Source: Mycetohabitans endofungorum
Lineage (GTDB): Bacteria; Pseudomonadota; Gammaproteobacteria; Burkholderiales; Burkholderiaceae
Length of the DNA: 64,000 bases
Reading direction: 5' to 3'
Assembly (NCBI RefSeq): GCF_037477895.1
Contig: NZ_CP132744.1
Span: 1-64,000, forward strand
In this document: positions 8,865 through 44,343 of the stretch, one piece after another
Layout: every line of letters begins with the position of its first letter
How positions within the stretch are numbered: the first letter of the stretch is position 1
The notes under the pieces: model-generated
Told to the model about the DNA's origin: nothing
Databases searched by the model: none
What the model saw: only the letters and a program-made list of their open reading frames with translations
Position numbers and translations under genes: made by a program

Positions 8865-9746
8865 TCAATCGGCATCGTGAGCGGGAGCGTTCACTACAGT
8901 CAAATCAGTAATCACCAATAGAGAATTAGGCAGATCCTCATCTATCTCATTCCAACGGTTGTTATACTCTTTAATCACTTCTTCTACTGCATTATTTGTC
9001 GCTTGGTCAAGTAGGCCGCTTACGTGAACCGCAGGCTGATCGGGCTCTTTGTACTCACATGTTATGGCCAAACGTGCGAGCTGTGCTCGTACCTCAGGCA
9101 TTGTGTTGACGTCGGACTTCTGCAGAACTTGTTTAACCAGCGCGCGCTTGAAGGGCAACGATTTATCATACTGTTCCCATTTTGACGATTCAAGTTCCGT
9201 ACTAAGCACGGGTGGCGCTTTTACAGGCTGGTCAGGAACTATTTTAATTGGTATCGTCACTTGAAAATTCAGACACAGGCGTGGCCGATCGCCCAACGAT
9301 TGCCAAAAATTCCCCAAACTCGATAAATGCTCCAATGGTGCGATCACCCGCGCAAATGACGGCAGACCTGCGTCACGAAGCAGCGTACCCAGCTCAGCAC
9401 TGAGCAGTGCATCGAGCACCGCATTCATTACTATCATCGGTTGACCGTCTGGCTTCATCCCCTCTTTCTTCGGTTGCTCCCAATACGTTACAAGATAACA
9501 ACAACGCACGTTGACTTGTCTAGCATCAAATGTCCCTGTCTTTGCACAATACTGACGTGATTGCCCTTGGCGTAGCTCAAGGTCTTCTTGAATGTCATAG
9601 AGGAACACGCAAACAGTTGGCATATCCGGTAGCAATGTTTTGTCCGGAATATCAAAACGAATATCGATTGGCACATCGCTGATCCGCGACAAGTATTTTT
9701 CCAATGAAAGTGCAATCGCTTTATTCAAAGTGATGATCGGCTGCAT
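8865..9746 (-). CDS. eCIS DUF4255 protein (Pvc16-like, tail terminator/cap)
   Basis: This 293-residue protein is of the DUF4255/Pvc16 N-terminal type and probably closes the distal end of the sheath-tube as cap or terminator. The start is placed at 9746 (MQPIITLNKAIALSLEKYLS), where the family pattern begins; the nine residues upstream are unlike the family. The N-terminal part shows the typical helix followed by the DMPTVCVFLYDIQEDLELRQ strand region. The second half is variable. It lies downstream of the AAA+ ATPase, the usual position of pvc16 in PVC/Afp loci. Confidence 0.85.
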   Translation of the reverse strand: MQPIITLNKAIALSLEKYLSRISDVPIDIRFDIPDKTLLPDMPTVCVFLYDIQEDLELRQGQSRQYCAKTGTFDARQVNVRCCYLVTYWEQPKKEGMKPDGQPMIVMNAVLDALLSAELGTLLRDAGLPSFARVIAPLEHLSSLGNFWQSLGDRPRLCLNFQVTIPIKIVPDQPVKAPPVLSTELESSKWEQYDKSLPFKRALVKQVLQKSDVNTMPEVRAQLARLAITCEYKEPDQPAVHVSGLLDQATNNAVEEVIKEYNNRWNEIDEDLPNSLLVITDLTVVNAPAHDAD

Positions 9747-9855
9747 ACTTTCTGACTCCTCGCCCCTATCCATGATTTAGTCTGCGATGACCGCATCCGT
9801 CATTTAAAGTTGACGTTTTCATCAGCCCCCGCCTTGCATTGGCAAAGGCCTTTAC

Positions 9856-12042
9856 TTAAAGCTGCGGCATAATCCTCCCCGTCTTGCTCAGCTCGCGGCG
9901 CACCGCGCGAGCGATATCAACCCAACTTACCGCTCGGTCCTCCTCGGCAGCAAGCCAGCTCGCCAGCAACGCCACGTTCCGGATGCCCGCTCCCGTTAAC
10001 TCCGTGGCCGCCGAGAACCGCGCAAAATCCACTTCCTGATCCACCGCCACCTGCTCCGGCCAGATCGCCCGCCACATGCGTTCACGCAATACGGCATTGG
10101 GTGTCTCGAAACGCGTAATAAACGTTAAGCGGCGTGTGAACGCATCATCCAAGTGCGCACGATTGTTCGTCGTCAGCACCACCAGCCCGGGGTACTGTTC
10201 CAGCCGTTGCAACAAGTACGACACTTCAATGTTCGCATGCCGGTCTTGCGCGTCCTTTACCTCACTGCGCTTGCCAAACAGCGCATCCGCCTCGTCGAAC
10301 AACAATACGCCCGTGTCCGCCACCGCTAGATCAAAGATCTGCGACAGATTCTTTTCTGTCTCGCCGACATACTTGTTGACTACCGTCGACAGGTCCACTC
10401 GGATCAAATCCAGCCCTAACTCCCCAGCGAGTACCTCTGCGGCCATCGACTTGCCCGTGCCCGATTCGCCATAGAACAATGCGCTGATGCCAGTGCCATA
10501 GCCTACTTTGCGAGCGAACCCGCGCGTCAGCACCGCGTCGCGCTGCCGGATGGCCGCGAGAATCTCGTGCAGCTGCTCACGTAGGTGCTCGTTCACGATC
10601 AGGTCGTCGAGGGTGCGCTGCGGCTGCATGCGCTGTGCGAGTTGCCCAAAGTGTTGCTGGCCCCGCACGCGCAGCGCTTGGCACAGGTCGGCTTCTGCAA
10701 GCGGCGCTTGCGCCCCACGCAGTGCCCGATAGCCTTGCGCCTCCTGCAGCGTTGAAGTCAAGGTGTCCGGATTCACCCGTGTGCGCTTAAGCAAGCCTGC
10801 CAGATCCCACCCATCACTGCTAGTCCCCAGGCCAGCTTGCAGCAACCGCACGTTATCCTCGTGCATGCGCGGCGGCATCGTCAGGCGCAGCTTCGGCAGG
10901 CTTGCGAACGCCTCTGCTGTTTCCTGCGTAGACAATAGGCACACGATGGGTTGACCATGCCGCGCCAGTCGTGGCTCCAGTGCCTCGAGGAGCGGTCTGT
11001 GCCGAGATAGGCCTTCGGTGACGTGCTGTAATACCAGTATGCCACCGTGCAAGCGCGCCTCACGCAGCGCCGCCAGTAGCAGCGGCCAGGCATCCGTCGC
11101 ATCGTCTGGCAACGCCCGCAGATTGACGATCAAAGTTGGGCGGCCTGCCTCGCTGGCTAGCTGCGCGATAAGTGCCTGGCTGCCATTGCCCCCTTGCAGC
11201 AGTAGTAACGGAGTGGGCATGGCGCGTGATCCGGTCCCGAAACAGAACGTCGCAATCTGCTCCGCGCACGCGGCCCACGCGCCATGACGCAGCGCCTCGC
11301 CAGCATGTGAGGTTGGATGCCATTGCGCGAGTTCCGTCAGTGCCATGGGTAGCGACATCGCGTCCGCCCCACTGAGATAGCGAAACACGGTCTCGTTCAC
11401 GCGCAGGTAGGCTGCATCGTCGCGCGCGCATGCGCGGCCATTGCGCTCGGCCGTATGCACAAGCTCATTAAGCAACAGGCTGCCTGCGCTCGAGTAAAGC
11501 TGGTGGCGGTGTGCGATACGCTCCACCGGCGTGGCGCTAAATAGCGTCAACGCCAGCTCCACGCCAGGCCAACTCGCGCCTTCATCACCTTGCAAATAAG
11601 CAATCAATGCGCGGTAGCGTGGCTCGAGGAGCGGCAATAAGCACAGCACCAGCACCTGGGTTTCAAAATGCGTCAGCCCGAATCGGTCGATAACGCTGGC
11701 GAGCCGGCCGTGCGGCACGGGTGCGCACAGCGTTGTCCACGGGGGAGCGTCGCCGCTCGCTGCACTCCAATGCGGCATGCCGCGCGGTTGCGTGCGTGTG
11801 GCTTCAAGCGCCTCCTGCGTGTGCAGCAACTCCGCTATGTTAAAGCGGTCGTCTTCGCGTTGGTGCTGCCACACCAGCAGGTGCTGCAGCGCCTGGTCGA
11901 CGTATTCGAGCCATGGCCCCAGCGCCTCGAACGCATGGGCCACGCCTGCATTCGCAGGCGGCGCATTGGCCCAATCAACCGTATCGGGTTGCCCAGCGCC
12001 CGATGCAAGGGCGTCTAACACGTCAGTCGAGAGAGTTTTCAT
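9856..12042 (-). CDS. eCIS AAA+ ATPase (Pvc15-like)
   Basis: This 728-residue protein has a long N-terminal region of unknown role and a C-terminal AAA+ module. Walker A (FYGESGTGKSMAAEVLAGEL) is near residue 527 and Walker B (GVLLFDEADALFGKR) near 580, followed by a sensor segment VVLTTNN. In PVC/Afp-like systems this ATPase is needed for particle assembly or cargo handling but is not part of the mature particle. The start at 12042 (MKTLSTDV) shares an ATGA with the stop of the tape-measure remnant upstream, showing that the gene was once translationally coupled to a different tape-measure gene. The frame can be extended to 12105, but that part overlaps the remnant in another frame and is unlikely. 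Confidence 0.92.
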   Translation of the reverse strand: MKTLSTDVLDALASGAGQPDTVDWANAPPANAGVAHAFEALGPWLEYVDQALQHLLVWQHQREDDRFNIAELLHTQEALEATRTQPRGMPHWSAASGDAPPWTTLCAPVPHGRLASVIDRFGLTHFETQVLVLCLLPLLEPRYRALIAYLQGDEGASWPGVELALTLFSATPVERIAHRHQLYSSAGSLLLNELVHTAERNGRACARDDAAYLRVNETVFRYLSGADAMSLPMALTELAQWHPTSHAGEALRHGAWAACAEQIATFCFGTGSRAMPTPLLLLQGGNGSQALIAQLASEAGRPTLIVNLRALPDDATDAWPLLLAALREARLHGGILVLQHVTEGLSRHRPLLEALEPRLARHGQPIVCLLSTQETAEAFASLPKLRLTMPPRMHEDNVRLLQAGLGTSSDGWDLAGLLKRTRVNPDTLTSTLQEAQGYRALRGAQAPLAEADLCQALRVRGQQHFGQLAQRMQPQRTLDDLIVNEHLREQLHEILAAIRQRDAVLTRGFARKVGYGTGISALFYGESGTGKSMAAEVLAGELGLDLIRVDLSTVVNKYVGETEKNLSQIFDLAVADTGVLLFDEADALFGKRSEVKDAQDRHANIEVSYLLQRLEQYPGLVVLTTNNRAHLDDAFTRRLTFITRFETPNAVLRERMWRAIWPEQVAVDQEVDFARFSAATELTGAGIRNVALLASWLAAEEDRAVSWVDIARAVRRELSKTGRIMPQL

Positions 12043-12195
12043 TGAAGCCACATCACGCTGATTGGGGCCAGCAGCCACGGCAGCGATACTTGCGTGAGCG
12101 GCCACGGCACTTCATTGAGTAGTATGTCGATCGCCACGCGCTCGACGCTAAACTGCAGCCTGCCGTCTTCTTGCTGCAGCGTGCCCGGGCGCATA
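12039..12195 (-). pseudogene. C-terminal remnant of a second eCIS tape-measure gene
   Basis: The last 50 codons read MRPGTLQQEDGRLQFSVERV then AIDILLNEVPWPLTQVSLPW. This matches the C-terminus of the intact tape measure at 16873-19221 (RPGMLTRQPNKRWTLQVEPH, then ADVLLHMIPWPLEQVWLPW). The remnant stop overlaps the ATPase start as ATGA, the normal coupling. Its sequence differs clearly from the intact copy, so it is not a recent duplicate. The upstream part is gone, replaced by IS3 debris and the plus-strand gene block. Confidence 0.8.
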
Positions 12196-12833: not shown

Positions 12834-12939
12834 GCGGCACCATTCTCAATGGATGGGAAGAAGCAGGAAGTTGAGAAAGCGTCGTGGTCCTAATAAGAAG
12901 TAGCCAACCACTTTGCCAAAAACGCAAAATAGGGGAAAA

Positions 12940-13656
12940 ATGATGTTTTTAGCTAGACTTCTCACTGATTCAGCGGTCCTCACCAGGTTTGTGGTCGATG
13001 AAGAAAACCTCAACTCAAGCAACATTCCCATTCACTATAATACTTTGGAGGGAAACCAACCAAACACCTACGACAACAAATTTTTTGTGTGGCAAACAGA
13101 TGGTTGGGAAGTCAACGGATCGCCTGACAATACGTTTCCAATCGACTCCGACCATGCCAGTGGCCCTATAACCTTTACTGATGTTGGACTAACTGACGCG
13201 AATTACTTGTTAGGCTACGCGGTAGGCAACGACCCGAAGGCTGTTGCGACCACATGTCGCTTAGAGACCCAAGGCGGGGGTAAATACAAGGTAATTACGC
13301 CGGAAGCGGATGAAGCGTTCTTGTTTGAGACGACCAATATCACTAGAACAACGGTAACGTACCGCTTCCGCATACCGACCGGGTATGGCGCGGAAGGTGC
13401 TGGGGATTGGGTCGGAGTATGGAAGGGGTCTACGGGATCGTACCTCTACGACGAAACGCGAGCGCCCATTACTTCCAAGAATGTAACAATTGATGAGCCC
13501 TCCGGGACCGTTCCGTTGGTCCTTTCTAATGGCCAGCAATTCGTGAGTGGCTCCAGCTACATGCTCGGCTACTTCAAGAGTGGGTACAATCGAACAAAGC
13601 CAGAAGATTCCAAGCGGACTACGCTCGCCGCTATTATCAAATTCAAGGGTCCCTAA
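12940..13656 (+). CDS. Tandem beta-sandwich-like protein, paralogue 1
   Basis: I do not recognise a named family for this 238-residue protein; it founds a four-gene paralogous block. Start at 12940 after AGGGGAAAA. It has two halves that look related. The first carries IPIHYNTLEGNQPNTYDNKF and a YLLGYAVG strand. The second carries VTYRFRIPTGYGAEGAGDWV, then GVWKGS, and ends SYMLGYFKSGY...RTTLAAIIKFKGP. The GDWVGVWKG stretch recalls the RDWIGIF motif of SKICH and other Ig-like beta-sandwich domains, which is inference only. No signal peptide or membrane segment is seen. It runs opposite to the eCIS operon it interrupts, so it could be cargo, decoration or an unrelated passenger. Confidence 0.75.
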   Translation: MMFLARLLTDSAVLTRFVVDEENLNSSNIPIHYNTLEGNQPNTYDNKFFVWQTDGWEVNGSPDNTFPIDSDHASGPITFTDVGLTDANYLLGYAVGNDPKAVATTCRLETQGGGKYKVITPEADEAFLFETTNITRTTVTYRFRIPTGYGAEGAGDWVGVWKGSTGSYLYDETRAPITSKNVTIDEPSGTVPLVLSNGQQFVSGSSYMLGYFKSGYNRTKPEDSKRTTLAAIIKFKGP

Positions 13657-13666
13657 GCACTGAGCA

Positions 13667-13696
13667 GCGCCCGGGCAGATAAAGGTACCCGGGCGC
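13667..13696 (+). terminator. Hairpin terminator after paralogue 1
   Basis: A perfect 9-bp stem, GCGCCCGGG pairing with CCCGGGCGC around a 12-base loop, is followed by CCTCTCTTTT. It starts 11 bases after the stop codon, so paralogue 1 may be partly separated from paralogue 2. Degenerate relatives of this hairpin occur after paralogues 2 and 3. Confidence 0.65.
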
Positions 13697-13780
13697 CCTC
13701 TCTTTTGCCCCTAAGCTCAGCTGCCAGGGGCAAATTAAAAATATATTTTTTAAATAAAAAATCAAAATAGGAGAAAAGTG

Positions 13781-15184
13781 ATGGTGTCGCCAACTAAGCT
13801 TCTCACCAATCCCTCTTTTCTTACCGAGTTTAATGTCGATGAGGAAAATATCACCGCAACAAACATTCCCATTTGCTATGACACTCTAGAAGGAAACCAG
13901 CCAAAAACATACAAAAATACTGTCTACCTGTGGCAGGTAGACGGTTGGGAGGTTCCTCCATCGAGCCCGAATCTAATAAAAGAGCCTTTAATTAAAGACG
14001 ACAGTCACAGCTCCTCTCAAATCTTTGAAGTTGAGTTGACTCTTGCGAATTATTTAATTGCCTACGCGGTGGACGAGGAAAAGGATGCCGTTGTGACCAC
14101 GCAGCGCCTAGAGCCCTTAGGCGGCGGCAAATACAAGGTCATCACACCACCCGAGGAGGAAGCACTCTCGTTTAAGATGACCGATGTTAATCCGACAACA
14201 GTGTCATACAGCTTTCGCATGCCGAGTGGGACGAACGCGAAGGACGATGGGGATTGGATCGGAGTGTGGAAGGCCCCCAAGGTGTCGGACCTCTACGACA
14301 ATATACACGAGCCTATTCACTTTTTGCCGATAGAAGTCGACGACAGCAATGAGGACAACTGTATTTTTACCCTTCCCCATGCCCGGCAATTCGAAATCGG
14401 CGTTAACTATATGCTCGGCTACTTCAAGAGCGGGTACAATACGCAAACACCCTTGCGGACCACGCTCGCTGCCGTTACCTCCTTCAAGGGCCCCCCAAAG
14501 CCTAGCCTCACCTGGTTCAGTGTCGATCCATGTAACATCGACGCGACCAAAATTGGCTTTCGCTATGAAACGCTGGACGGGAACCAGCCGAAGACATACC
14601 AAAATACCGTCTACCTCTGGCAGACAGAAGGTTGGACGGTCCCCTCAACGACGGACAAAAAGCATTCAATCACCTCCGACTCAGCCAAAGATTTTCAAAA
14701 CTTTAACGTTGAATTAAAACAGGCGAATTACTTGATCGCCTACGCTGTGGGCCCAACAGTCAATGCTATTGTAACCACCCAGCGCCTAGAATACCAAGAG
14801 GACAGCAAGAACTACAAGATCATTCCGGCGCCCAGCGACGAGGCACTTTCGTTGAAGGTGACCCATGTTAATACGACAATGGTGTCGTACAGCTTCCGTA
14901 CACCGGCGGGGACGAGCGCGAAAGCCAGTGGAGATTGGGTCGGGGTGTGGGAGGGTACTACGGTGTCGAAACTCTACGATAATACGCAAAAGCCCATTGG
15001 CTTGCAGCCGATATCAAAAGACGACAGCCACGGGGACGATAGTTTGACCCTTCCTGACGGCCAACAATTCGTGAGCAGCAAAAGCTACATGCTCGGCTAC
15101 TTCAAGAGCGGATACGATCAAAACAAACCAAATGAACCCGCGCGGACCACGCTTGCCGCCATTGTCCGCTTCAAGGGCCCCTAA
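13781..15184 (+). CDS. Tandem beta-sandwich-like protein, paralogue 2 (double length)
   Basis: This 467-residue protein is two full copies of the unit seen in paralogue 1 joined head to tail, each about 230 residues. Both copies carry the markers GNQPKTY, NTVYLWQ, YLIAYAV, VTTQRLE, GDW(I/V)GVW, YMLGYFKSGY and TTLAA. The units join near residue 240, right after the first unit's FKGPP. Start at the ATG at 13781 after AGGAGAAAA; a GTG one codon earlier is possible. If each unit holds two beta-sandwich halves, this protein has four. No enzyme motif is visible. A binding, structural or inclusion-type role is more likely than catalysis, but that is inference. Confidence 0.78.
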   Translation: MVSPTKLLTNPSFLTEFNVDEENITATNIPICYDTLEGNQPKTYKNTVYLWQVDGWEVPPSSPNLIKEPLIKDDSHSSSQIFEVELTLANYLIAYAVDEEKDAVVTTQRLEPLGGGKYKVITPPEEEALSFKMTDVNPTTVSYSFRMPSGTNAKDDGDWIGVWKAPKVSDLYDNIHEPIHFLPIEVDDSNEDNCIFTLPHARQFEIGVNYMLGYFKSGYNTQTPLRTTLAAVTSFKGPPKPSLTWFSVDPCNIDATKIGFRYETLDGNQPKTYQNTVYLWQTEGWTVPSTTDKKHSITSDSAKDFQNFNVELKQANYLIAYAVGPTVNAIVTTQRLEYQEDSKNYKIIPAPSDEALSLKVTHVNTTMVSYSFRTPAGTSAKASGDWVGVWEGTTVSKLYDNTQKPIGLQPISKDDSHGDDSLTLPDGQQFVSSKSYMLGYFKSGYDQNKPNEPARTTLAAIVRFKGP

Positions 15185-15225
15185 ACGCCAAGCAGCATCC
15201 GGGTAGACCTTAACTAGGAGGCAAT

Positions 15226-15996
15226 ATGATAATAAGCCCAGGTAGGTTCCAATCTCAGCTCACTTCAATCACTGTCGAGTCGGAAGACATCAAGTCGACC
15301 ATCATACCCTTTCGTTATGACACGCTGCCTGGGAATCAGCCGAAGGCAAACAAGAATATCGTCTACCTTTGGCAAACGAACGGGGAAGAAATCCCCTTCC
15401 ATGAAGACCCGCAGCGAAAATCAATGCTCATCGATTCTAATCGGGCCGATAACTTCACCAACTTTGACGAGCTTTCGCTGGCTAAAGATTCGTATTTGAT
15501 GGCCTACGCGGTAGCGAATAATGTGAACGCCGTTGTGACCACGCTACTCATCACGGGTGTGGGTGACGGCCGGTTTAACGTATCCCTCCCAGAAGATAAG
15601 CTGGCATTCTCGGTGGCCCAGATCGGCTCGACATCATTGTGCTATTACTTTTGCGTGCCGAGAGGAATGAGTCCGAAGGACGATGGCGATTGGGTTGGAC
15701 TGTGGGAGGGTTCTACGGTGTCGGAACTCTACTACAAAAAACCCCTATTCTCCTCGCCTGTGTTAAGTGACATCAACAGCGGATACGGTGGACTAACGCT
15801 GCCTGAAGGCCAAAACCTCATGAGCGGCATCGAATACATCCTCGGTTACTTCAAGACCGGGTATAAGAAAGATAAGAAAGTCGATAAAGAAGGAAGCGTT
15901 AAAGAAGAAGTTAAGAAGAACAATCAAGAAGAGGGAAGTAAGGAAGACCCCTTGCAAACCACGCTAGCCGCCGTTACCATCTTTACTGGCCCATAA
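15226..15996 (+). CDS. Tandem beta-sandwich-like protein, paralogue 3
   Basis: This 256-residue family member starts at 15226 after a strong AGGAGG. It keeps the markers IPFRYDTLPGNQPKANKN, YLWQTNGEEIP, YLMAYAVANNVNAVVTTLLI, DGDWVGLWEGSTVSELYY, YILGYFKTGY and TTLAAVT. It has a unique Lys/Glu-rich insertion near residues 220-242 (KKDKKVDKEGSVKEEVKKNN), a likely flexible loop that separates it from its siblings. It is more like paralogue 4 than like 1 or 2: both share the DGRF...SVAQIGSTSL or SVTQIGPASL segment. Confidence 0.78.
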   Translation: MIISPGRFQSQLTSITVESEDIKSTIIPFRYDTLPGNQPKANKNIVYLWQTNGEEIPFHEDPQRKSMLIDSNRADNFTNFDELSLAKDSYLMAYAVANNVNAVVTTLLITGVGDGRFNVSLPEDKLAFSVAQIGSTSLCYYFCVPRGMSPKDDGDWVGLWEGSTVSELYYKKPLFSSPVLSDINSGYGGLTLPEGQNLMSGIEYILGYFKTGYKKDKKVDKEGSVKEEVKKNNQEEGSKEDPLQTTLAAVTIFTGP

Positions 15997-16048
15997 ACGC
16001 CGGGCGGCATCCAGGCGGATGAAGGGACCCCGGCGGACGCCCGCGCCT

Positions 16049-16092
16049 GAGTTCAGCGGCGCCAGGTCAGTCAAAAGTATGCGGTCCTTTTT
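16049..16092 (+). repeat. Spacer repeat, copy B
   Basis: Second copy of the block at 12791-12833, again beginning GAGTTCAGC and containing GTATGCGGTCCTTTT, located 20 bases before the paralogue 4 start. It marks the unit of duplication within the block. Confidence 0.55.
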
Positions 16093-16111
16093 CTCAAACT
16101 AAGAGGGAAAA

Positions 16112-16816
16112 ATGATGGACGAGCCCTCCTCCCAAGCAACTTCGATCACTCAGTTCACTGTCGAAGCGGAGGACATCAAGCCGAGAATCATCCCCTTGCG
16201 CTATGACACACTGCAAGGGAACCAGCCGAAGACTAACAAAAATACCGTCTATCTCTGGCAAACGAAGGGAGAGGATGTTCTCGTCAAAATCACGCCTTTC
16301 AGATCGCAGTCCATCAGTCGCAACGAACCTAACGCCTCGACCAACTTCATGGGGCTTTCGTTGAGTAAAGAGCCGTACTTAATGGCCTACGCGGTAAATG
16401 ACAACGTTAGGGCTATTGTCGCCACGCTGCTCATCGAAGGTGTGGGCGACGGTCGATTCACGGTATCCTCCCCTACGGATAGCCTATCGTTTTCGGTAAC
16501 TCAGATCGGACCGGCATCTTTGTCGTACTGGCTCTGCGTGCCAAGAGGGATGAATCCAAAGGACGACAACGATTGGATCGGACTGTGGGAAGGTTCTACA
16601 GTGTCTGAGCTTTACTACAAAAGACCTCGATGTTTCTCGCCGGTGCCAATCCACACCAACAAGGGAAACGGTGTGTTTGCCCTCCCTGAAGGTCAGAACG
16701 TTGAGAATGGCATCGAATATACGCTCGGCTACTTCAAAAGCGGGTATGACGAGCAAAATCCCTTGCAAACCACGCTCGCCGCCAGTACCACCTTTAAGTG
16801 GGAAGGGGGCGGGTAG
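16112..16816 (+). CDS. Tandem beta-sandwich-like protein, paralogue 4
   Basis: This 234-residue member begins at tandem ATGs (16112/16115) after AGAGGGAAAA. It shows IIPLRYDTLQGNQPKTNKNT, VYLWQTKGEDV, YLMAYAVNDNVRAIVATLLI, DDNDWIGLWEGSTVSELYYK, YTLGYFKSGY and TTLAASTTFK. It lacks the Lys/Glu insertion of paralogue 3 and ends in a short Gly-rich tail instead of FKGP. Its 3' end converges on the tape-measure gene, whose stop is at 16873. The sequences of paralogues 3 and 4 suggest a later duplication than the split from 1 and 2. Confidence 0.78.
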   Translation: MMDEPSSQATSITQFTVEAEDIKPRIIPLRYDTLQGNQPKTNKNTVYLWQTKGEDVLVKITPFRSQSISRNEPNASTNFMGLSLSKEPYLMAYAVNDNVRAIVATLLIEGVGDGRFTVSSPTDSLSFSVTQIGPASLSYWLCVPRGMNPKDDNDWIGLWEGSTVSELYYKRPRCFSPVPIHTNKGNGVFALPEGQNVENGIEYTLGYFKSGYDEQNPLQTTLAASTTFKWEGGG

Positions 16817-19221: not shown

Positions 19222-19234
19222 GGCTGCTCTCCAG

Positions 19235-33576: not shown

Positions 33577-34017
33577 TCATTGTGCAAGCCATCCTCCCTG
33601 CGGACTGCTGATATTCAGCTTGCCACCGACATGTTGCACCGTATTGTTCAGGGGAATCCGGTAAGCAATATCGATATTGAGCGTCCACGGCGAATTGCTG
33701 TCCGGTCTGAAATCAATTGAGACTAGCGTGCCCCGGGGCTCGTAGGTTTGAACCGCGTCACTGATCATCTGGCGAATTGCGGTGCGCAGCCCATCGCTGA
33801 TATTCTCAAACACAAAGGTCTGCAAATCACACCCATAGCCTGCGCGCATCACCCGTTCGTACGGCTGCGTACTAAACAGTACCTGCAGACTCTCTCTGAT
33901 ATTGTCCGCATCGCGTGACATCGTCACTTGCGCTGCTTTTGGCTTGTTGGAGACACATTCGAACTGCACTGGAAACTTCCAGCCGCATCCAAGCTGATCC
34001 TGAGGTCCGTTCACCAT
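33577..34017 (-). CDS. eCIS gp25-like baseplate protein (Pvc9-like)
   Basis: This 146-residue protein is a small baseplate wedge protein of the GPW/gp25 family. It shows the family signatures NIRESLQVLFSTQPYERVMR and AGYGCDLQTFVFENISDGLR. The start at 34017 (MVNGPQDQ) is preceded by GGAGGACAGG at ideal spacing. An ATG at 34029 lies upstream of that site and is disfavoured. It follows the spike gene by 20 bases. A 145-base gap separates it from the Pvc11-like gene, where a PAAR gene (pvc10) would sit in PVC loci but is absent. Confidence 0.9.
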   Translation of the reverse strand: MVNGPQDQLGCGWKFPVQFECVSNKPKAAQVTMSRDADNIRESLQVLFSTQPYERVMRAGYGCDLQTFVFENISDGLRTAIRQMISDAVQTYEPRGTLVSIDFRPDSNSPWTLNIDIAYRIPLNNTVQHVGGKLNISSPQGGWLAQ

Positions 34018-34037
34018 CCTGTCCTCCATTCATACGA

Positions 34038-36559: not shown

Positions 36560-36768
36560 ACGCTACCTCCGTGGACATCACTACGCCATTCATCACGCAG
36601 CCGTTCAATGACCTGCCGCACAATCGCATCCACCCAACGCGCCTCACACTGCGTTGCTTCCTGAGAGGGTATGGGCGACGTAGCCGTACTCAGAGCGGTC
36701 GCCGGCACGCTCCATGTCCCTGGCGTACCGATGCGCGCCTCGATGATCAATTCATGAATTTCAATCAT
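36556..36768 (-). CDS. eCIS small DUF5908-like protein (Pvc6-like)
   Basis: This 70-residue protein starts MIEIHELIIEARI, the beginning of DUF5908/Pvc6 proteins. Its role is unknown; it is present in most PVC-like operons at this place. The start at 36768 overlaps the stop of the second tube gene by 4 bp, and its own stop overlaps the LysM gene by 4 bp. A longer frame from 36801 lies in the tube gene and lacks family similarity. Confidence 0.8.
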   Translation of the reverse strand: MIEIHELIIEARIGTPGTWSVPATALSTATSPIPSQEATQCEARWVDAIVRQVIERLRDEWRSDVHGGSV

Positions 36769-37307
36769 GCCACCAACCCCATCCACTGCACATCCCGGCA
36801 AGCAAGCTCCATCGTATTAAGCAAGACGGTGTTGCTATTGGCATCAAGTTCACCCCATTGCAGCTTCACAGGTAAAGCATCCATGCAGATCCAACTGCAC
36901 AGCGGCAACGACGATGAATCAAGCAACAAGATAACCACCACCAGGTACCGGCTTTTGAATTGACGCATCGTGTCGATGAACATTGTCGTCAACGGCGATA
37001 ATGTCGTGACCCCGCGCTCCAAAACAATGTTCTCCTGTATAAGTTCCTTCGGTAAGTGAATCTGGTTAATAGGATCACCGCCTTGATGAAACTTCTGTGT
37101 TTGGATCGTCCGGCCCAGTCCACTAATGCGTTGAAAACGAAAATCAACGACCGTTGGCAGTACATTGAGCGCTTGCAGATTACCCGTGAATCCCCAATTC
37201 TTCTTAGCAAAGATTTGGACTAGAAACCGGTGGCTATGCGCGTAAAAATCACCGGTGATCGGCGCCTTAGCCATCGCCTCGGCGGTTGATAAAATTGCAC
37301 TGCTCAT
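36765..37307 (-). CDS. eCIS second tube protein (Pvc5-like, gp19 family)
   Basis: This 180-residue gp19-family protein probably forms the first tube ring that adapts tube to baseplate. It shows FLVQIFAKKNWGFTGNLQAL and FQRISGLGRTIQTQKFHQGG, typical of the family. The start at 37307 (MSSAILSTAEAM) overlaps the sheath stop as ATGA. The reading frame extends far upstream into the sheath gene, but that part is only a shadow. Confidence 0.88.
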   Translation of the reverse strand: MSSAILSTAEAMAKAPITGDFYAHSHRFLVQIFAKKNWGFTGNLQALNVLPTVVDFRFQRISGLGRTIQTQKFHQGGDPINQIHLPKELIQENIVLERGVTTLSPLTTMFIDTMRQFKSRYLVVVILLLDSSSLPLCSWICMDALPVKLQWGELDANSNTVLLNTMELACRDVQWMGLVA

Positions 37308-38710
37308 GATGTCGCTTTCTCCGTCGATTCCGTTAGCACAGCATCGCTGCCCGTTTGAAACAACACGCGCAGCTCGATAAATTCCGCCGGATATTGCATC
37401 GCAAGCTTCGCGATCAGAATTAACCGGCCCGATCGAATATCTTCTGTCGTCATGCTCTCGCCAAGTCCTAACAAGACCTGGAATGCATCGCCTTCCTGTG
37501 CTCCAACCAGTCCTCCCGCGAGCCATAGATCGCGTAGCCAAGCACGCGCTAAGCTTTTGAGCGTCGTCCACGTAATCGCGGTATTCGGCTCGAACATCGT
37601 ATAACGGCCAATGTTCGTTAAAGTGGTCTCGATATAGGTCAGCGTGCGCCGTACCTGAATGTAGCGCCACCGGTCCGGCAACGGTGGGGCAACCAACGTG
37701 CGGCAGCCCCATACACGCACCCCGCGCCCAACGAAGCTTCGAATCAGATTAATGCTGATTTTATTTTCATCGAATAACGGCGGCTCAGAAAGCAATACAT
37801 CGCGCCAGCTCCGATAGTTAGGCCGGGTCACTTGGGTTAATTCGACATTGGCCGGGGCCTTCCAAATACCACGATCGCGGTCGGTTTTACCGATCGCTGC
37901 AACCACAGCGCCTGAAGGTGGAACGACGATTTGGCGTCGAATACGCTGACGGCCGTCATCATAATCAACGTAATAGTTCGTTTGCAGACGCGGCCAATAC
38001 ACCGCACCGCGCGCGCGCAGTGCTTCATCCGTTGACTTCTCCAGCCCATCCAGACACTGGCGCACAAGCTTCGGATTGTCCGGCGCATCGAGTACTACAA
38101 AAACTTGCCGATGAGATTCGGTTGTTTCTAATAACTTCTTCCACACCGACGTCCAAAGCCCCGCATCTTCCTGCGGTACCTGCTGATCGCTCAACTGATC
38201 GCTGCCGTTTGCCTGATAGTACTGGGGCGCTGATAGCATCACCATATCGGGCACCGCCAGCAGCGTTGCATCTAGCGCCTGCTCAAGAAAATCATTCCAG
38301 TCAGTTCTGGTGATGCAATCGGCTATGTCTTGCCGTGCGTAATAGTCGTCCCCTTCTGGAAAATTCGCATAGCTTCCCAATGAAACACCATAGCACGCAC
38401 TACCACCGTTATCGAAATAATGTCTCACGGTGTAATAGAAAGCGGCTTCCTGCGTCAACGGAACCCGTGGATTAGATGACGGAAAACCACCAAAAACCTG
38501 CGTAAAATCTTCAAACGTATTCAGCAAGACGGGGGACTTCGGGCACTTTGATGCTAGATCTTGTGATTCCGGATCTTTTTCTGTATAGCCAGCAAATAAC
38601 GGCACCGTCGTATCGGCCGGTGTTGTCGTACGGGCTTCATCTTGAAAATTAAAACTGACACCAGGTTGCTCATGACGCACTGTTCGAACTCCAAGATTCG
38701 TCAATCTCAA
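37304..38710 (-). CDS. eCIS sheath protein 3 (Pvc4-like)
   Basis: This is a 468-residue contractile sheath subunit. The conserved C-terminal domain is visible (RWRYIQVRRTLTYIETTLTN, FEPNTAITWTTLKSLARAWL). The N-terminal handshake part has QPGVSFNFQDEARTTTPADT. The start is uncertain: the best GGAGG is followed by ATGCGTTGA, which stops at once, while the real frame opens at TTG 38710, 12 bases after that site. It is the most divergent of the three sheaths and probably makes the ring next to the baseplate. Confidence 0.85.
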   Translation of the reverse strand: MRLTNLGVRTVRHEQPGVSFNFQDEARTTTPADTTVPLFAGYTEKDPESQDLASKCPKSPVLLNTFEDFTQVFGGFPSSNPRVPLTQEAAFYYTVRHYFDNGGSACYGVSLGSYANFPEGDDYYARQDIADCITRTDWNDFLEQALDATLLAVPDMVMLSAPQYYQANGSDQLSDQQVPQEDAGLWTSVWKKLLETTESHRQVFVVLDAPDNPKLVRQCLDGLEKSTDEALRARGAVYWPRLQTNYYVDYDDGRQRIRRQIVVPPSGAVVAAIGKTDRDRGIWKAPANVELTQVTRPNYRSWRDVLLSEPPLFDENKISINLIRSFVGRGVRVWGCRTLVAPPLPDRWRYIQVRRTLTYIETTLTNIGRYTMFEPNTAITWTTLKSLARAWLRDLWLAGGLVGAQEGDAFQVLLGLGESMTTEDIRSGRLILIAKLAMQYPAEFIELRVLFQTGSDAVLTESTEKATS

Positions 38711-38758: not shown

Positions 38759-40177
38759 TCACTCGTCTTGTTGTTTCTGTGAAAACTGCAAGATAATAAA
38801 TTCGGCCGGGCGCACCGCAGCCATTCCAACCTTAACAATCAGTTTGCCCGCGCGAATATCGGCATCGGTCATCGTCACATTCTTGCCCACCTGCACGAAA
38901 TACGCCTCTTCCGGTTTTGTGCCCTGCAAGCCGCCCTTACTCCATATCGCGTGTAGGTAAGCATCAATAGCCGCACGAACTTTTTCCCATGTCGGCTGAC
39001 TGTTTGGCTCGAACACGACTTGCCTCATCGCGGCCTTGATATCCCGTTCAGCCGCATTAAATAATCGCCGCACTGGGATATACCGCCAACGCTTATCAGG
39101 ATTGTCGTCGGTACCGTTCTGCGTCCGGGCTCCCCAGACTACATAAGCTTGTTGATTCGTGAAATATCGGATTGCATTGATGCCTACTGGATTTAGTTTC
39201 TCCTGAATCTCATCGGTAACCGTCACCGGCTGAGGTGCTTTCTGGATTACTCCCTGCGGTGTTGGGCAAGGCCACACCGTCCCTTTTACCGACGACAAAG
39301 TCACATTTGCCGGGGCCTTCCATACTCCACGCAATGCATCGGTACGCGCATAGACTCCCGCCATGACTCCACTTGCACGCAGGGGAATGGCTGACAACGA
39401 CCTAATCTTTCCAATCAGTTCATCTTTATCCCTCTGTTCCGCATCATTTTTTGGCTTATAATCAATCAGCAATTTAAGTGTTGACGGCAAGGGTGTACCG
39501 GAAGATGAAAAACTTTTAAAACTTCCTTTTAATGTAATCTTATTATCATCAGGTATTGTCATCTGGTAGTTCATCTGCAATGCCGGATAGTAAATCGCAA
39601 CCTGCTCCTTATTACCGAAATCGATATTCTTTACATTATCAAGATCGCTGTCCGTCAACACAAAATAGCCAAGATTTTTCTGCGGATCAATCAAGTTTTT
39701 GAAGGTAATTTTAACGTTTTCCGGCTCCGACGGTTGATTTCCACAATAACACAGCAGTGAGATGTCAGGGTAGGCCAGAATTGCACTTTCAATATCGGCT
39801 TGTGATGTTAATTGCTGAATTGATAAAATATAACATGGCCCGCCGCCATTTTCGAAATACGCCTGTATCGATACGGCGCTGGCGGAGTCGGGTACAACTT
39901 TACAATTACCTTGAATGATATCGTTATTCACGGTGAGCTGGGCTTCCTTTAAATCAAGCGCGCTAACAAACTGCTTAGTAAATTCAGCCCAGTTATTCAC
40001 TCTGATGCAGACTACAGGGTCTGTAGTCACTAGTATTGGATCATCCCCTTGGTTCGCCCCGGGTTTAAAAAACTGTCCAACAAACACTGGAATGGCCGTT
40101 GCACCAGACAGCACACTCAGCGACAACGAATGGTCTTCTTCAATATAAACGCCGGGAACTTTATAAGGTCCACCCAT
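38759..40177 (-). CDS. eCIS sheath protein 2 (Pvc3-like)
   Basis: This 472-residue sheath subunit starts at 40177 (MGGPYKVPGVYIEEDHSLSL) with GAGGAT upstream. The C-terminal domain (RWRYIPVRRLFNAAERDIKA, FEPNSQPTWEKVRAAIDAYL) is very close to that of sheath protein 1. The middle, surface-exposed domain is larger and AT-rich, unlike sheath 1. Several sheath paralogues in a row are usual in PVC/Afp loci. Confidence 0.92.
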   Translation of the reverse strand: MGGPYKVPGVYIEEDHSLSLSVLSGATAIPVFVGQFFKPGANQGDDPILVTTDPVVCIRVNNWAEFTKQFVSALDLKEAQLTVNNDIIQGNCKVVPDSASAVSIQAYFENGGGPCYILSIQQLTSQADIESAILAYPDISLLCYCGNQPSEPENVKITFKNLIDPQKNLGYFVLTDSDLDNVKNIDFGNKEQVAIYYPALQMNYQMTIPDDNKITLKGSFKSFSSSGTPLPSTLKLLIDYKPKNDAEQRDKDELIGKIRSLSAIPLRASGVMAGVYARTDALRGVWKAPANVTLSSVKGTVWPCPTPQGVIQKAPQPVTVTDEIQEKLNPVGINAIRYFTNQQAYVVWGARTQNGTDDNPDKRWRYIPVRRLFNAAERDIKAAMRQVVFEPNSQPTWEKVRAAIDAYLHAIWSKGGLQGTKPEEAYFVQVGKNVTMTDADIRAGKLIVKVGMAAVRPAEFIILQFSQKQQDE

Positions 40178-40244
40178 GACTATCCTCACTATTTCTACAT
40201 TCTTAATTTTTAGTACAGCCTATCCGCTCGATCACCCATCCGCA

Positions 40245-41474
40245 TTACGCGGTGTGCATGTCCTGAGTGAAGCGCAAAATAATGAACTCCGCAGGAAACA
40301 CGGGCGCCATGCCAATTTGGACAATCATTTTGCCTTCATCGATGTCGTCCTGCGTCATTGTCACCCCCAGCCCTAACCGCACAAAGTACGCCTCCTCCGG
40401 CTTCGTACCCATGAGCCCGCCCGCCTTCCAGATACCGTACAGATATGCATCGATTGCCGCCCGCACCTTCTCCCACGTCGGCTGGTTATTCGGTTCGAAC
40501 ACCGCAAACGCCATCGCCCGTTTGATATCTTTTTCCGCCGCACCGAATAGCCGCCGCACCGGCACGTATCGCCAACGCTCCTTCTCGCTGTCGCCTGCCA
40601 GCGTGCGCGCACCCCACACCAATGGCACGTCTGTCTGAAAGCAGCGAATGATGTTCAGGGGTTTGGTATATTGATTGTAGATCCCCTGGGTGGCATCGGA
40701 TACAACAAACTTTGGCACGACCCCGCCTTGTAACGGAACATTGGCTGGCGCCTTCCACACGCCGCGGTCACGGTCAACAGCACAGTATGCGCCAGCAACC
40801 GCCGCACTCACCGGGATATCCTTTATGACCTGCGCATCCTTCCCTGTACCTTTATCCGTCGTGACATACGTTGCCCAGTTTGCCTGCAAAGGGGGATAGT
40901 AAGCAGCAGCATATGAGCTATTAGGATAATCCTTTGTCATGCTCTGACTGGGATCCGTGGCAAGCTTGATGGATGGACCATCCAGGATCGCAAAGCGCGA
41001 TTTGCCCTCTGCACATAAACCTGTACCTGGCATAAAGACCGCGTCTGCCAACTTAGGCCCCCCCGCTTGAACAATTAACGTCACGTCATCCAGCTCGGGT
41101 ACAGTCTTGATTAAGGTGTCGGTAGTATCACCTTTTCCGTTCGTTGGACACACATAGCAATAGCCACCGCCATTGTCGAAATAGGTTTTTAACGCAACAT
41201 AGAGTGAGTAATCGACCAGATGCTTTGTAAGAGGATTTTTTGGATCTTTTGCCTCGTTCTCGGCCACGGTCTGAACATTGGGCAAATTTACGAACGCCAT
41301 CCATGAATCGATACGGGTCGGCGCTGAGATTAATTCTTGATTACTCGCTTTAGTTTTATCTTTAGCATCGCCAAGGTCGTACGCAATCACCGGCACCGCG
41401 GTCGCCCCGCTGGTAATCGCCAAGGACAGACCTTTATCTTCTTCGACATAGACACCCGGCCAATCGTAAGCCAT
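40245..41474 (-). CDS. eCIS main sheath protein 1 (Pvc2-like)
   Basis: This 409-residue sheath protein starts MAYDWPGVYVEEDKGLSLAI, the typical sheath N-terminus that donates a strand to neighbouring subunits. It carries the conserved core ERWRYVPVRRLFGAAEKDIK and GTKPEEAYFVRLGLGVTMTQ. It is the shortest of the three and follows directly after the tube gene, so it is probably the main subunit of the contractile sheath. Confidence 0.93.
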   Translation of the reverse strand: MAYDWPGVYVEEDKGLSLAITSGATAVPVIAYDLGDAKDKTKASNQELISAPTRIDSWMAFVNLPNVQTVAENEAKDPKNPLTKHLVDYSLYVALKTYFDNGGGYCYVCPTNGKGDTTDTLIKTVPELDDVTLIVQAGGPKLADAVFMPGTGLCAEGKSRFAILDGPSIKLATDPSQSMTKDYPNSSYAAAYYPPLQANWATYVTTDKGTGKDAQVIKDIPVSAAVAGAYCAVDRDRGVWKAPANVPLQGGVVPKFVVSDATQGIYNQYTKPLNIIRCFQTDVPLVWGARTLAGDSEKERWRYVPVRRLFGAAEKDIKRAMAFAVFEPNNQPTWEKVRAAIDAYLYGIWKAGGLMGTKPEEAYFVRLGLGVTMTQDDIDEGKMIVQIGMAPVFPAEFIILRFTQDMHTA

Positions 41475-41528
41475 GTTCTTACCTCAATCGGGATAGGGCA
41501 CTGGCGGCATGCGCCGCTGATCGCGCTT

Positions 41529-41978
41529 TCAGTGGAATGTTATCGTCAATCGATCGGCTACAAGCGTCAACTCCTCGATCGACACCTCATTGCTTGTCGC
41601 ATCAAAGCTTGGCCCCGACAATTTGCTCGGGAATGCATCCGTCACATTCCACGTCACCAGCAACGCGGTGCCCGCCTCATCAGTCAGGCTAATTGAGAGG
41701 TCTCGTTTGTCAATCAAGTTCTTCGATATCTTGCTAATCCAGTCATACAGCTCGCTTTTACCCTTAATCACGCCCCGCCGCAATGTGATGTTTAACTCAC
41801 TGGCCTGCCCGGGCATCCGGTACACATGTCCCGCTCCATCTTTATAGGTAATCGTCTCAAATCCCAAATCCAACCCCGAGACATTGCTAAATGCCATCTC
41901 GTCTTTGCCCATCATCACTTTGAACCGGTAAACCGGAATCGGGTAGGTTGTTGCGATTTGATCTGCCGTGGTTGCCAT
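41529..41978 (-). CDS. eCIS main inner tube protein (Pvc1-like, gp19 family)
   Basis: This 149-residue Hcp/gp19-fold protein builds the inner tube through which cargo could be carried. Signatures: YPIPVYRFKVMMGKDEMAFS, NVSGLDLGFETITYKDG and ISKNLIDKRDLSISLTDEAG. A good GGAGAAG lies before the ATG. It is the first gene of the coupled operon. The promoter should be in the 41979-42400 region, where I could not pick a convincing -35/-10 pair. Confidence 0.94.
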   Translation of the reverse strand: MATTADQIATTYPIPVYRFKVMMGKDEMAFSNVSGLDLGFETITYKDGAGHVYRMPGQASELNITLRRGVIKGKSELYDWISKISKNLIDKRDLSISLTDEAGTALLVTWNVTDAFPSKLSGPSFDATSNEVSIEELTLVADRLTITFH

Positions 41979-42439
41979 AACTTCTCCTTTATTGTGTATT
42001 AGGAAACCTTGCGTCCCGATTGCATCATGAGCCCGTGCCGTTTGACTAGCACATATTACGTACAGTGGACACGACGTTTACCGTGCCGTTCAGCGATATT
42101 TTGGTCCACTGACAGACGCGCCCAACTCATCGACGGTTATACGTCGCTTCATTGAGAGAATGGATTGACCGGCTAAGCTAGTCGAGCTTCAACGCTTCGA
42201 ATATCGACACCCGCCCGCGGCTGAACAAGCGATAAAGGCTAACTCAGTGCTGTCATCTTCGTATCCTTTTTATGCTTCGTGATTTTGACAATTCACCCGA
42301 TTCGCGCTGGACCTTCACCTCTCTGACTCGGTTGCTGCGCCAGCACCGCCCGAGTGATGCTTCGTTCTCAGTCGGCAGTGTATCGCCGTGGCTAAAAGTT
42401 TAGTCCAGTGTGAAAAATAGTTTAGTACAATCTATTCTT

Positions 42440-43623
42440 GTAGTAGATGACGGAGTTGGCCTCAGTTATTCGGACAATTTTAGTGATTTTTCGCCACATT
42501 CGTTCAACAAATACATTGTCGCGCCAACTTCTTTTGCCCATTATTAACACTCGAATGCTCCGGCCCAGCACGGCACGGCCTCAATGAACGCGTTCGCTGT
42601 GAGCTGCCTTGGTTTGTGTTCGCGGGTTTGGGCTGCCGTAGCGTGCGTACTCGTCCTCGAGCGCTTCGACAGCGTGCGTTGCTTCCAGCGTGATGGCGAC
42701 CCGGTGCGCGAGTACCTTGCAGCTAACCCAGTCCACCACCGCCGTCAGATACACGAAGCCATGCATCATCGGAACATAGGTTGTACCCAGCGCCCACAAC
42801 TGGTTGGCCCGCTCGATCTTCATGCTCCGCAGCAGATACGGCCAGACCTTGTGCTGGCTGCCGTCACGGTGAACAAGTCCAATACGGCGTTCGGGCGTTT
42901 ATCGTCGTTTAACAGCGCGTATCGGTAAAGCAAAGACATTAACAGCCACCGCCCGGAAGATTGCAGTGCTGCGCTACAACGCGATGCGTTTCGGCATGAC
43001 GTCCACGCCCCCCGGAGCAGACCGTTACGGACGGTGCTACAGGGAGCGAGTCATCAAACAATGACATCGGCGAGCGGCGGAATTCGGCGTCTCACCGCAA
43101 CCTGCGCAAGGCATTTCTTAAAAATTCTCTTGCCTTCTTGCTCATTTCTTCAAAGTCTGTCCGATTGAGTAAGGCCATCTCCGGACGATTTTACCGAGCT
43201 TCGGTCAAAGCCCGGGCCATCTTGTTCTCCTCCTAGTTCGCCACGTTCATAATAATAAAGGGTGCGCGACATCCCCACTAAGCGGCACACACGCGCCAGA
43301 CTCACGGTGAAATGCTGCCTTAAGTGATCGATTAACCTGCGACGCTTGTGTGTGCTGAGACTCTGCGCTCGAAGCGCCTCGCTCAGTACTTCACTATCGC
43401 GTTCAAGCGATTTCACACGCTGGCGCAACCGTGCGTTTTCCCGCGTCAGTGCGGTGATACGTTCAAATACAGGTGCACTCAGACCGTCATAACTTCTTTT
43501 TAATTGATAAAGCGTCGTTGCACTGATACCCCATCGGCAACAAACCTGAGGCACCGTCTCACCCTCACGAAGTGCTTGTAACACCGCTATGATTTCAGTC
43601 GCATTGAGCTTATGGTTCCTCAC
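42440..43623 (-). pseudogene. Decayed IS3-family transposase genes
   Basis: OrfA is readable at 43150-43623 (MRNHKLNATEIIAVLQALRE, CCRWGISATTLYQLKRSY), running into an OrfB-like start (RRLIDHLRQHFTVSLARVCR). Pieces of the OrfB integrase core follow in broken frames: ANQLWALGTTYVPMMHGFVY with LTAVVDWVS at 42581-42823, and WRDNVFVERMWR near 42466-42535. Much of the catalytic region is missing. It lies between the eCIS tube gene and the PAAR-like gene and may have split one operon. Confidence 0.8.
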
Positions 43624-43926
43624 GTCATGTTATTCCTATCGTTGAACAGCATGAGAAAATGAATTGCGGCACACAATCGCATATCCTATCAGATGCTAAC
43701 TGCTATCGAAATAAAGATCGATTCATTTTTATAGAAAAAAACATACCACATTAAAGTCTTATTTTCCCCATAAGGATTATCAAGGGAGTGCATGCGATTG
43801 TGCCAGCTGTTTCGCGCATGTTGCAAACCTGAATGGATGCTTGCTTTGATTCAGACGAAGTCCTCATGATGCTTAAGGAGAAAATGGTGTGGGAAGTGTT
43901 TTTTAGATAGATGAGCAACCTATGCC

Positions 43927-44343
43927 CTAGTTCGCTATCACATTGATATTGGGATTGGCCATCACGGTAGCCTTGCCTGAAACGGGTGGATGGGGTTGTG
44001 GAACAGGGGGCGTACCCGGTATTTGTGCCGGAACCGTGATGGTACATAATATGTCCCAACTGGGCGCAATAATGACAGGCAGCGGGCTCTTTGTTCGCTT
44101 GGCGGTTTCAGCCTGCGTGACCGTCAAAATAGCGACGCCTGGAATGGAAGCCGAAGCCGTCTGATAGCTAGTTGTCACGATGATTTTCTTTTCATCGCCC
44201 AGCTGACAAACCGGCCGCCCTTTTACCTTGGCAAAGCCGCTTCCCGACAGGGGCCGTGGAGGAATCGGGGGCACGAATAGTACATCCTGAATCTGAACCG
44301 GAAAAACCAGCATGGCACCCGTCACGACGATCAGCTTGCCCAT
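43927..44343 (-). CDS. PAAR-like spike-tip protein (possible Pvc10 counterpart)
   Basis: This 138-residue protein has a PAAR/DUF4280-like pattern: an initial MGKLIVVTGAMLVFP strand, GFAKVKGRPVCQLGDEKKII and a Pro-rich tail (PGTPPVPQPHPPVSGKATVM). The start has GGAG seven bases upstream. PAAR proteins sharpen the spike tip. Because no PAAR gene lies next to gp25 in this operon, this one is the likely tip. It is separated from the tube gene by IS debris. Family assignment is moderate; no His/Cys metal site is obvious. Confidence 0.6.
   Translation of the reverse strand: MGKLIVVTGAMLVFPVQIQDVLFVPPIPPRPLSGSGFAKVKGRPVCQLGDEKKIIVTTSYQTASASIPGVAILTVTQAETAKRTKSPLPVIIAPSWDILCTITVPAQIPGTPPVPQPHPPVSGKATVMANPNINVIAN

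Follow-up and report, generated by a model that had tools for sequence, protein, structure and literature searches.

The first 64,000 nucleotides of contig NZ_CP132744.1 of Mycetohabitans endofungorum (NCBI RefSeq assembly GCF_037477895.1; this whole stretch is hereafter the window) carry what is, by its gene content, a complete-looking extracellular contractile injection system (eCIS) of the Afp/PVC type at 8865-44343. We think it likely that this is the eCIS of a fungal endosymbiont, with a predicted IS3-derived regulator, a candidate cargo with the fold of phosphatidylinositol (PI)-specific phospholipase C (PI-PLC) and an enzyme that would methylate the particle, most likely on a fiber. On balance, the sequence comparisons also lead us to favor the view that the front of an IS3 transposase has been domesticated as a dedicated, locus-specific switch, of which each of four eCIS types has its own diverged copy, and that genes labeled "transposase" in front of tail genes would be regulators timing the arming of the syringe inside the fungus.

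An IS3-Derived Gene Upstream of Tube 1

Our comparisons covered nine genomic eCIS loci in four Mycetohabitans genomes and three more on the M. endofungorum plasmids B3, B5, and B14 (for B14, the start only). We assigned these loci to five types: type 1 (the window), type 2 (genomes G000 and G005), type 3 (G002 and G005), type 4 (G002, B5, and B14), and type 5 (B3). Two contigs of G002 (C18 and C40) were taken as one split locus, as inferred from their complementary sheath pieces.

The product of 43150-43623 has the helix-turn-helix of IS3 OrfA (HTH_Tnp_1, 1.6e-11) and scores 61 bits against the IS3 model NF033516, whose cut-off is 160. The match is limited to the first third of the model, after which the frame ends, and the DDE catalytic core is absent; we take the matched region to be OrfA plus the start of OrfB, assuming where the boundary between the two lies. 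The nine best matches to this protein in the genus are encoded upstream of tube 1 in all nine genomic eCIS loci, on the same strand and at 591-2188 bp start to start (1.6 kb in the window). With the plasmids included (two of three), the gene is present in 11 of the 12 Mycetohabitans loci read, these copies not being independent, as those of B5, B14 and the G002 type-4 locus are near-identical. Among 398 Burkholderiaceae genomes, with up to 10 candidates scored per genome, the nine copies match below 1e-60 and the next match, at 5.9e-27, lies in a frame of 387 residues, the length expected of a complete IS3 transposase. Further relatives (P0008-P0010) are 48-67% identical. Of seven eCIS loci with several sheaths from outside Mycetohabitans (G022, Pseudomonas saxonica, four Serratia plasmids and one Enterobacter plasmid), none has the gene within the fetched flanks, which are short in places, and one Serratia flank contains an OrfA-like frame at 62 bits. 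Similarly, the gene was not found in nine further Burkholderiaceae sheath-gene stretches (L089-L097).

A core of 126 codons aligns without gaps across the nine copies and four eCIS types, and the proteins of the other types are 30-57% identical to that of the window. For pairs within a type, the ratio of nonsynonymous to synonymous substitution rates (dN/dS) in the core is 0.00-0.23 (type 1), 0.17 (type 2), and 0.13 (type 3), while comparisons across types give saturated synonymous sites or a dS of 1.7-3.2. The higher whole-gene dN/dS of type 1 copies against the window (0.26-0.56) fits a loose tail beyond the core. From these comparisons the IS3-derived DNA-binding module looks functional and under purifying selection. 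Since a DNA-binding protein is fixed upstream of the operon, has diverged with the eCIS types and is under constraint, the product is probably a domesticated eCIS regulator, as predicted here.

Three observations weigh against this assignment: only 0-8 nonsynonymous changes per type-1 pair underlie the ratios, no such gene occurs with the eCIS of plasmid B3, and a search for a shared DNA motif of the regulator found none. It is very unlikely that the gene merely represents the first third of an IS3 element in decay that lies near the eCIS by chance, a reading that would fit the IS3 profile match, the "transposase" label that relatives carry in public records and the other insertion-sequence debris in the type-1 leader, because it conflicts with the gap-free core, the low within-type ratios beside (nearly) saturated between-type synonymous sites, the constant place and strand, and the distance to the next best match among the 398 genomes. 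The last part of that leader is conserved in four genomes, as listed in the alignment, and its debris was named IS3 OrfB by eye. If the domestication proposed here is true, the transposase-derived regulator would provide a direct handle on the timing of injector production in an endosymbiont, and a clear bacterial case of transposase domestication.

Composition of the eCIS Locus

The eCIS locus adjoins dnaA-dnaN-gyrB in a genome of 3.55 Mb on two contigs (Table 1). Read along the minus strand from position 44343 to 8865, the spike tip, the IS3-derived gene, tube 1, three sheaths and tube 2 are followed by Pvc6-, Pvc7-, Pvc8-, Pvc9-, Pvc11-, and Pvc12-like genes, three fiber-like genes, the methyltransferase and the tape measure; four plus-strand genes (12913-16816) then precede the ATPase and the cap. 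Profile searches identified the two tube and three sheath genes, and these, together with the Pvc8, 9, 11, and 12 baseplate set, the spike tip, the tape measure, the AAA ATPase and the DUF4255 cap, are the gene content of eCIS lineage Ia (Afp/PVC); a placement in this lineage is tentative, drawing on local trees of 11-14 rows and on the nearest solved chains, which are those of PVC and Afp. The closest solved chains for the sheath are 9qgl, a Photorhabdus-linked entry, and Pvc2. In comparisons of the window with its relatives, dN/dS was at most 0.61 for all 30 genes.

An earlier reading of this DNA without database searches (hereafter the first-pass annotation) had proposed a nearly complete PVC/Afp gene set encoding an injector. 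The core genes do match Afp/PVC or general contractile injection system families by profile, and the sheath, spike, gp25, baseplate, tape-measure and cap matches support the injector interpretation; the two tubes, three sheaths, gp25, spike, tape measure, ATPase and DUF4255 protein it listed were all borne out. Its claim that membrane genes of the type VI secretion system are lacking also held, as the IcmF_C profile (TssM) had no match in the whole genome and, as a control, matched one of 14 control genomes (Escherichia coli). Other details need revision. The DUF5908-like gene has the similarity claimed, just below the curated cut-off, and the supposed LysM protein matched no LysM profile, only CIS_tube. 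The two "J-like" proteins matched no J profile; they are instead baseplate proteins by their similarity to Pvc11 and Pvc12 and also to the solved Afp counterparts. Of the propeller tails, WD40 matches (~3e-6) were seen at the C-terminus of the Pvc11-like protein, all below cut-offs, and this protein probably ends in a WD40-like propeller. Nor do the genes lie on one strand with overlaps of 1-4 bp, since the four plus-strand genes separate the tape measure from the ATPase; among 19 neighboring minus-strand pairs there are seven overlaps (of 4 bp in five, and of 29 and 37 bp in one each), and the remaining 12 are spaced 8 to 4767 bp apart.

The open frame of the ATPase begins at a GTG, and its first codons overlap debris of a tape measure; translation more likely starts at an internal ATG. 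The tape measure gene contains three direct repeats, at 17466, 17988, and 18510, with a spacing of 522 nt. The spike tip gene, which is upstream of the operon in the window, adjoins gp25 in a second locus.

Table 1. Features of the window, in order of position.
Feature	Coordinates	Strand	Basis
dnaA, dnaN, gyrB	window start		named from sequence
PI-PLC-fold protein, probable cargo, directly after cap	7432-8544	-	predicted model against PDB; position
Pvc16/DUF4255 cap	8865-9773	-	Pvc16_N 2.2e-13
Pvc15-like AAA ATPase	9856-12105	-	AAA 5.2e-24; winged-helix domain (WHD) 9.7e-21
Tape-measure 3'-end debris, type-3-like; recombination scar	12048-12191	-	identity comparison
bs1, two-domain beta-sandwich	12913-13656	+	fold by homology to bs4
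bs2, doubled beta-sandwich	13778-15184	+	
bs3, beta-sandwich	15226-15996	+	
bs4, beta-sandwich	16112-16816	+	model pLDDT 94.9
Tape measure (Pvc14)	16873-19263	-	CIS_TMP 4.4e-63
Protein-lysine-methyltransferase-like enzyme	19235-21067	-	PKMT1 chain 5.1e-67, residues 49-366 of 610; PKMT_2nd 5.2e-10
Fiber-like protein 1	21064-22836	-	weak similarity to fibers 2 and 3
Fiber-like protein 2	23013-23879	-	related to fiber 3
Fiber-like protein 3	23876-25564	-	tail fiber chain 9qgo E 0.0022
Pvc12-like baseplate protein	25617-28493	-	Pvc12 chain 2.1e-142
Pvc11-like baseplate protein	28569-33431	-	Pvc11 chain 2.3e-112
gp25 (Pvc9)	33577-34029	-	1.8e-20
Spike (Pvc8, VgrG-like)	34038-35801	-	Phage_base_V 5.5e-11
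Pvc7-like tube adaptor	35798-36559	-	CIS_tube 1.1e-26
Pvc6/DUF5908-like small protein	36556-36801	-	1.5e-5; 26.1 bits, cut-off 27.7
Tube 2 (Pvc5), 180 aa	36765-37307	-	gp19 1.1e-20; start set at 37307
Sheath (Pvc4)	37304-38710	-	Phage_sheath_1C 7.2e-7
Sheath (Pvc3)	38759-40189	-	Phage_sheath_1C 2.6e-14
Sheath (Pvc2)	40245-41474	-	Phage_sheath_1C 1.2e-12; 9qgl 2.8e-106; Pvc2 3.7e-100
Tube 1 (Pvc1)	41529-41978	-	1.7e-35
1.17-kb leader with decayed insertion-sequence debris	41979-43149	-	alignment
IS3-transposase-derived DNA-binding protein without catalytic core	43150-43623	-	NF033516 positions 6-123 of 369
Spike tip (Pvc10/PAAR-like), upstream of operon	43927-44343	-	CIS_spike_tip 7.8e-22

A PI-PLC-Fold Cargo Candidate

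The first-pass annotation delimited the system at 8865-44343, which captures the core; the eCIS unit reaches past 8865 to the cargo candidate directly after the cap, which was left outside, and the conserved IS3-derived gene was not mentioned. The cargo candidate had no Pfam match even at E 1. In its predicted model, residues 1-54 are disordered, with a predicted local distance difference test (pLDDT) score <50, and precede a folded body. The first 24 PDB rows returned by Foldseek are all PI-specific phospholipases C, and comparison of the model with 1aod (TMt 0.70, E 1.3e-9) indicates the PI-PLC barrel fold. Residues H80, D125, R127, and H140 are invariant in all 24 aligned sequences (23 of 28 homologs plus the query), and H80 and H140 are the candidate catalytic histidine pair, by invariance rather than by superposition onto known residues. 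The 28 homologs, found by sequence search, include Xenorhabdus, Photorhabdus, Serratia, and RHS- and TccC-named proteins, as well as one from an assembly of the fungus Apophysomyces, which perhaps belongs to a fungal endosymbiont. A PI-PLC-like domain (37%) also occurs inside an RHS-repeat protein on an M. rhizoxinica plasmid (NZ_CP062175.1, 572331-573239).

Payload genes of PVCs are described as lying downstream of the core operon, with disordered N-terminal signals of 50-70 residues loading the payloads (PMC11495950). A 41% identical homolog of the window protein starts 41 bp after the cap gene of the divergent eCIS on the M. endofungorum B3 megaplasmid. Other loci have different genes after the cap (an alpha/beta-hydrolase-like protein, by eye like EAT17, in type 3 loci; uncharacterized proteins in type 2 loci), and thus this slot varies by locus. 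Based on the model and its position, the product of 7432-8544 is a PI-PLC-fold protein and our best cargo candidate. Two points temper this: the model is of moderate confidence (mean pLDDT 75.5), with 13-17% identity to solved PI-PLCs, and in the B3 homolog the folded domain is preceded by only ~25 residues, fewer than in a usual loading signal.

That short extension would also suit a protein that is not eCIS cargo at all, being secreted by a type 3 system or acting alone. Supporting this alternative are the reliance of Mycetohabitans on its type 3 secretion system for effector delivery, as stated in one report (PMC11261895), and the presence of a CesT-type chaperone gene within the window. 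We regard it as doubtful, if the least so of the alternatives considered here, because in two eCIS loci that have diverged from each other and belong to different replicons, the PI-PLC-like gene immediately follows the cap.

The chaperone gene (48991-49431, plus strand) comes after one for a protein of 535 aa (46769-48376, plus strand), for which no Pfam family scored above cut-off; by sequence, the pair resembles a type 3 effector and its chaperone. All four type-1 regions contain the effector-like gene (its G005 copy is cut by the end of the fetched stretch), and the chaperone was seen in three. At 49616-57275, a large helicase of the DUF4011 kind that also carries an MTES_1575 nuclease domain adjoins a HipA-like gene; this may be a defense or persistence island.

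Mosaic Origin of the Locus

The first-pass annotation had also called the system mosaic, and this is true in a stronger sense, since its parts differ in their closest relatives and there is a scar at the joint: by sequence comparison, the window eCIS is a true recombinant of two Mycetohabitans eCIS types. Tube 1 is 69-70% identical to types 4/5 versus 60% to types 2/3, and sheath 2 is 56-63% identical to types 4/5 (the 63% rows span only ~225 of 409 residues) versus 46-47% to types 2/3. The back has the opposite preference, with the ATPase 70-73% identical to types 2/3 versus 29-47% to types 4/5 (the 29% row being a cut gene) and the cap 52-66% versus 38-45%. Consistent with these values, type 1 groups with types 2/3 in the ATPase tree and with types 4/5 in the Pvc12 tree, in both with support of 100/100 and long-branch warnings. 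The debris overlapping the ATPase frame shares 73% identity with the tape measures of type 3, 56% with those of type 2 and 47% with that of the window itself, and the four plus-strand genes are located at the joint. The simplest reading of these sequences is that a type-4/5-like front was fused to a type-3-like back. However, gp25 has no clear preference among the types and in the regulator tree type 1 pairs with type 2, which makes it likely that loci exchanged parts more than once. This suggests that the front and back modules of eCISs are exchangeable between loci within one genus.

Methyltransferase, Fibers and Beta-Sandwich Proteins

The enzyme encoded next to the tape measure combines an S-adenosylmethionine-type methyltransferase domain with the second domain of protein lysine methyltransferases (PKMTs), and it resembles PKMT1 and PKMT2, which we take to be rickettsial. 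Its gene is present in all four type-1 loci, and none was found in Mycetohabitans loci of the remaining types (of B14, a part was read). It overlaps the gene for fiber 1 by 4 bp, and fiber 1 has the highest lysine share (10.0%) of 22 proteins read in frame. From these features we expect the methyltransferase to act, probably, on lysines of the particle, and our guess for the likeliest substrate is this lysine-rich neighbor. Comparison of fiber 1 with the PDB gave nothing below E 0.05, and only inspection by eye hints at a propeller at its C-terminus. Fiber 3 matched an adenoviral fiber only at E 0.32 and has shaft-like repeats by eye.

The four plus-strand genes encode two-domain beta-sandwich units for which the first Foldseek rows are FnIII pairs (E ~1e-5, low TM-scores). 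One of them, bs1, is the fastest-evolving gene compared (dN 0.27-0.38, with dS raised too), and bs4 is among the most conserved (dN/dS 0.09). These proteins are possibly a decoration or a second cargo family.

Distribution in Mycetohabitans

The presence of an eCIS in Mycetohabitans is not new, as that of M. rhizoxinica is already in print. Sarris 2014 (PMC4122934) lists Burkholderia rhizoxinica Rbrh_00107-00122 as Afp/PVC, Danov 2024 (PMC11297309) describes EAT17 of M. rhizoxinica HKI 454 as a yeast-toxic eCIS toxin, and a 2026 catalog (PMC12923769) shows an adenovirus-shaft fiber of the same strain. Sheath 2 matched four of the eight Mycetohabitans genomes searched, the four of 3.3-3.8 Mb, and no sheath was found in the four reduced genomes (1.1-1.2 Mb). 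In all four full-size genomes the eCIS genes of the window lie behind gyrB in the same order. The closest sheath 2 proteins are those of Mycetohabitans sp. B8 (96%) and M. endofungorum HKI456 (83%), followed by Pseudomonas saxonica and Paraburkholderia polaris (42-50%). Besides type 1, there is one further eCIS locus in G000, two each in G005 and G002, and none in G007.

One type-1 copy weighs against our reading. In G005 (C2:1-56000; L037-L039), sheath 3 and Pvc12 are each split in frame and a stop interrupts the gene of the PI-PLC-like protein, while all three are intact in the other three genomes; the G005 locus may be decaying or dispensable there, or the assembly may be faulty.

Outside the genus, three lone sheath-like frames of Paraburkholderia polaris (one in L012, two in L013) had no other tail homologs within the fetched stretches. 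Two loci of another genus (L090 and L091, from G080 and G021) have two tube-sheath pairs, an ATPase and two cap-like genes, with no homolog of the window's baseplate detected within the fetched stretches.

Proposed Mechanism, Target and Release

We propose that the IS3-derived protein would control the operon and the tape measure would set the length of the tube, into which the ATPase would load the PI-PLC-fold protein via its disordered N-terminus. The methyltransferase would modify lysines of the particle, most likely on fiber 1. Once released from the producer, the particle would bind a eukaryotic, probably fungal, membrane through its fibers and fire, and the cargo would hydrolyze phosphoinositide lipids.

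A eukaryotic target is plausible given a genus of fungal endosymbionts, the PI-PLC-fold cargo candidate and the yeast-active toxin of the M. rhizoxinica eCIS. The usual substrate class of PI-PLCs is chiefly eukaryotic. Attack on phosphoinositides by the cargo would point to a eukaryotic cell, which makes the question of the target testable. The particle might instead be aimed at rival bacteria or act inside its producer, as do cyanobacterial and Streptomyces systems. In keeping with this possibility, no lysis gene that would account for release was recognized in the eCIS locus of the window; a GH108 lysozyme gene accompanies the eCIS of plasmid B3, and a type-4 locus has a look-alike, by eye. 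We consider this alternative unlikely, as PVC and Afp provide the closest solved chains, the fold of the cargo candidate is that of enzymes whose substrates are chiefly eukaryotic, and the M. rhizoxinica toxin is toxic to yeast (PMC11297309).

The B3 lysozyme gene lies with a holin-like gene (by eye, without a Pfam match) upstream of the eCIS (L104:18161-19296), and inspection by eye shows a comparable pair past the ATPase in the type-4 locus (L084:5254-6407, on C18 of G002). These pairs are possibly a release cassette, one not seen in type 1.

Comparison with Known Systems

The window eCIS shares with the lineage Ia Photorhabdus PVC and Serratia Afp, its best solved relatives, two tubes, three sheaths, homologs of Pvc6-16 and a downstream payload position. 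It differs from them in having the spike tip upstream and, inside the locus, the plus-strand gene array and the methyltransferase. Upstream of Serratia Afp on pADAP there are a NusG-family gene, holins and lysozyme, a position at which the window has the IS3-derived protein. The M. rhizoxinica eCIS (Rbrh_00107-00122; EAT17) is from the same genus and is likewise called Afp/PVC (Sarris 2014); judged by content and by eye rather than by gene identifier, EAT17, which is PGAP1-like, would fit the type-3 locus and not type 1.

Among individual proteins, the methyltransferase resembles Rickettsia PKMT1/PKMT2 over about half its length and differs in being encoded inside an eCIS operon. The cargo candidate shares with bacterial PI-specific phospholipases C the fold and the conserved His/Asp/Arg pattern, and differs from them in its lack of a Pfam match and its long disordered N-terminus. 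A review states that some eCIS loci have no lysis cassette or conserved regulatory genes and that eCIS regulation is unclear (PMC10598620), and a putative GerE/LuxR-type regulator adjoins 25.8% of eCIS loci (Geller 2021, PMC8213781). The predicted regulator described here is likewise a putative eCIS-linked transcription regulator, although of an unrelated DNA-binding family: it has the helix-turn-helix and the first third of IS3-family transposases and, unlike them, has no catalytic core and is tied to eCIS operons.

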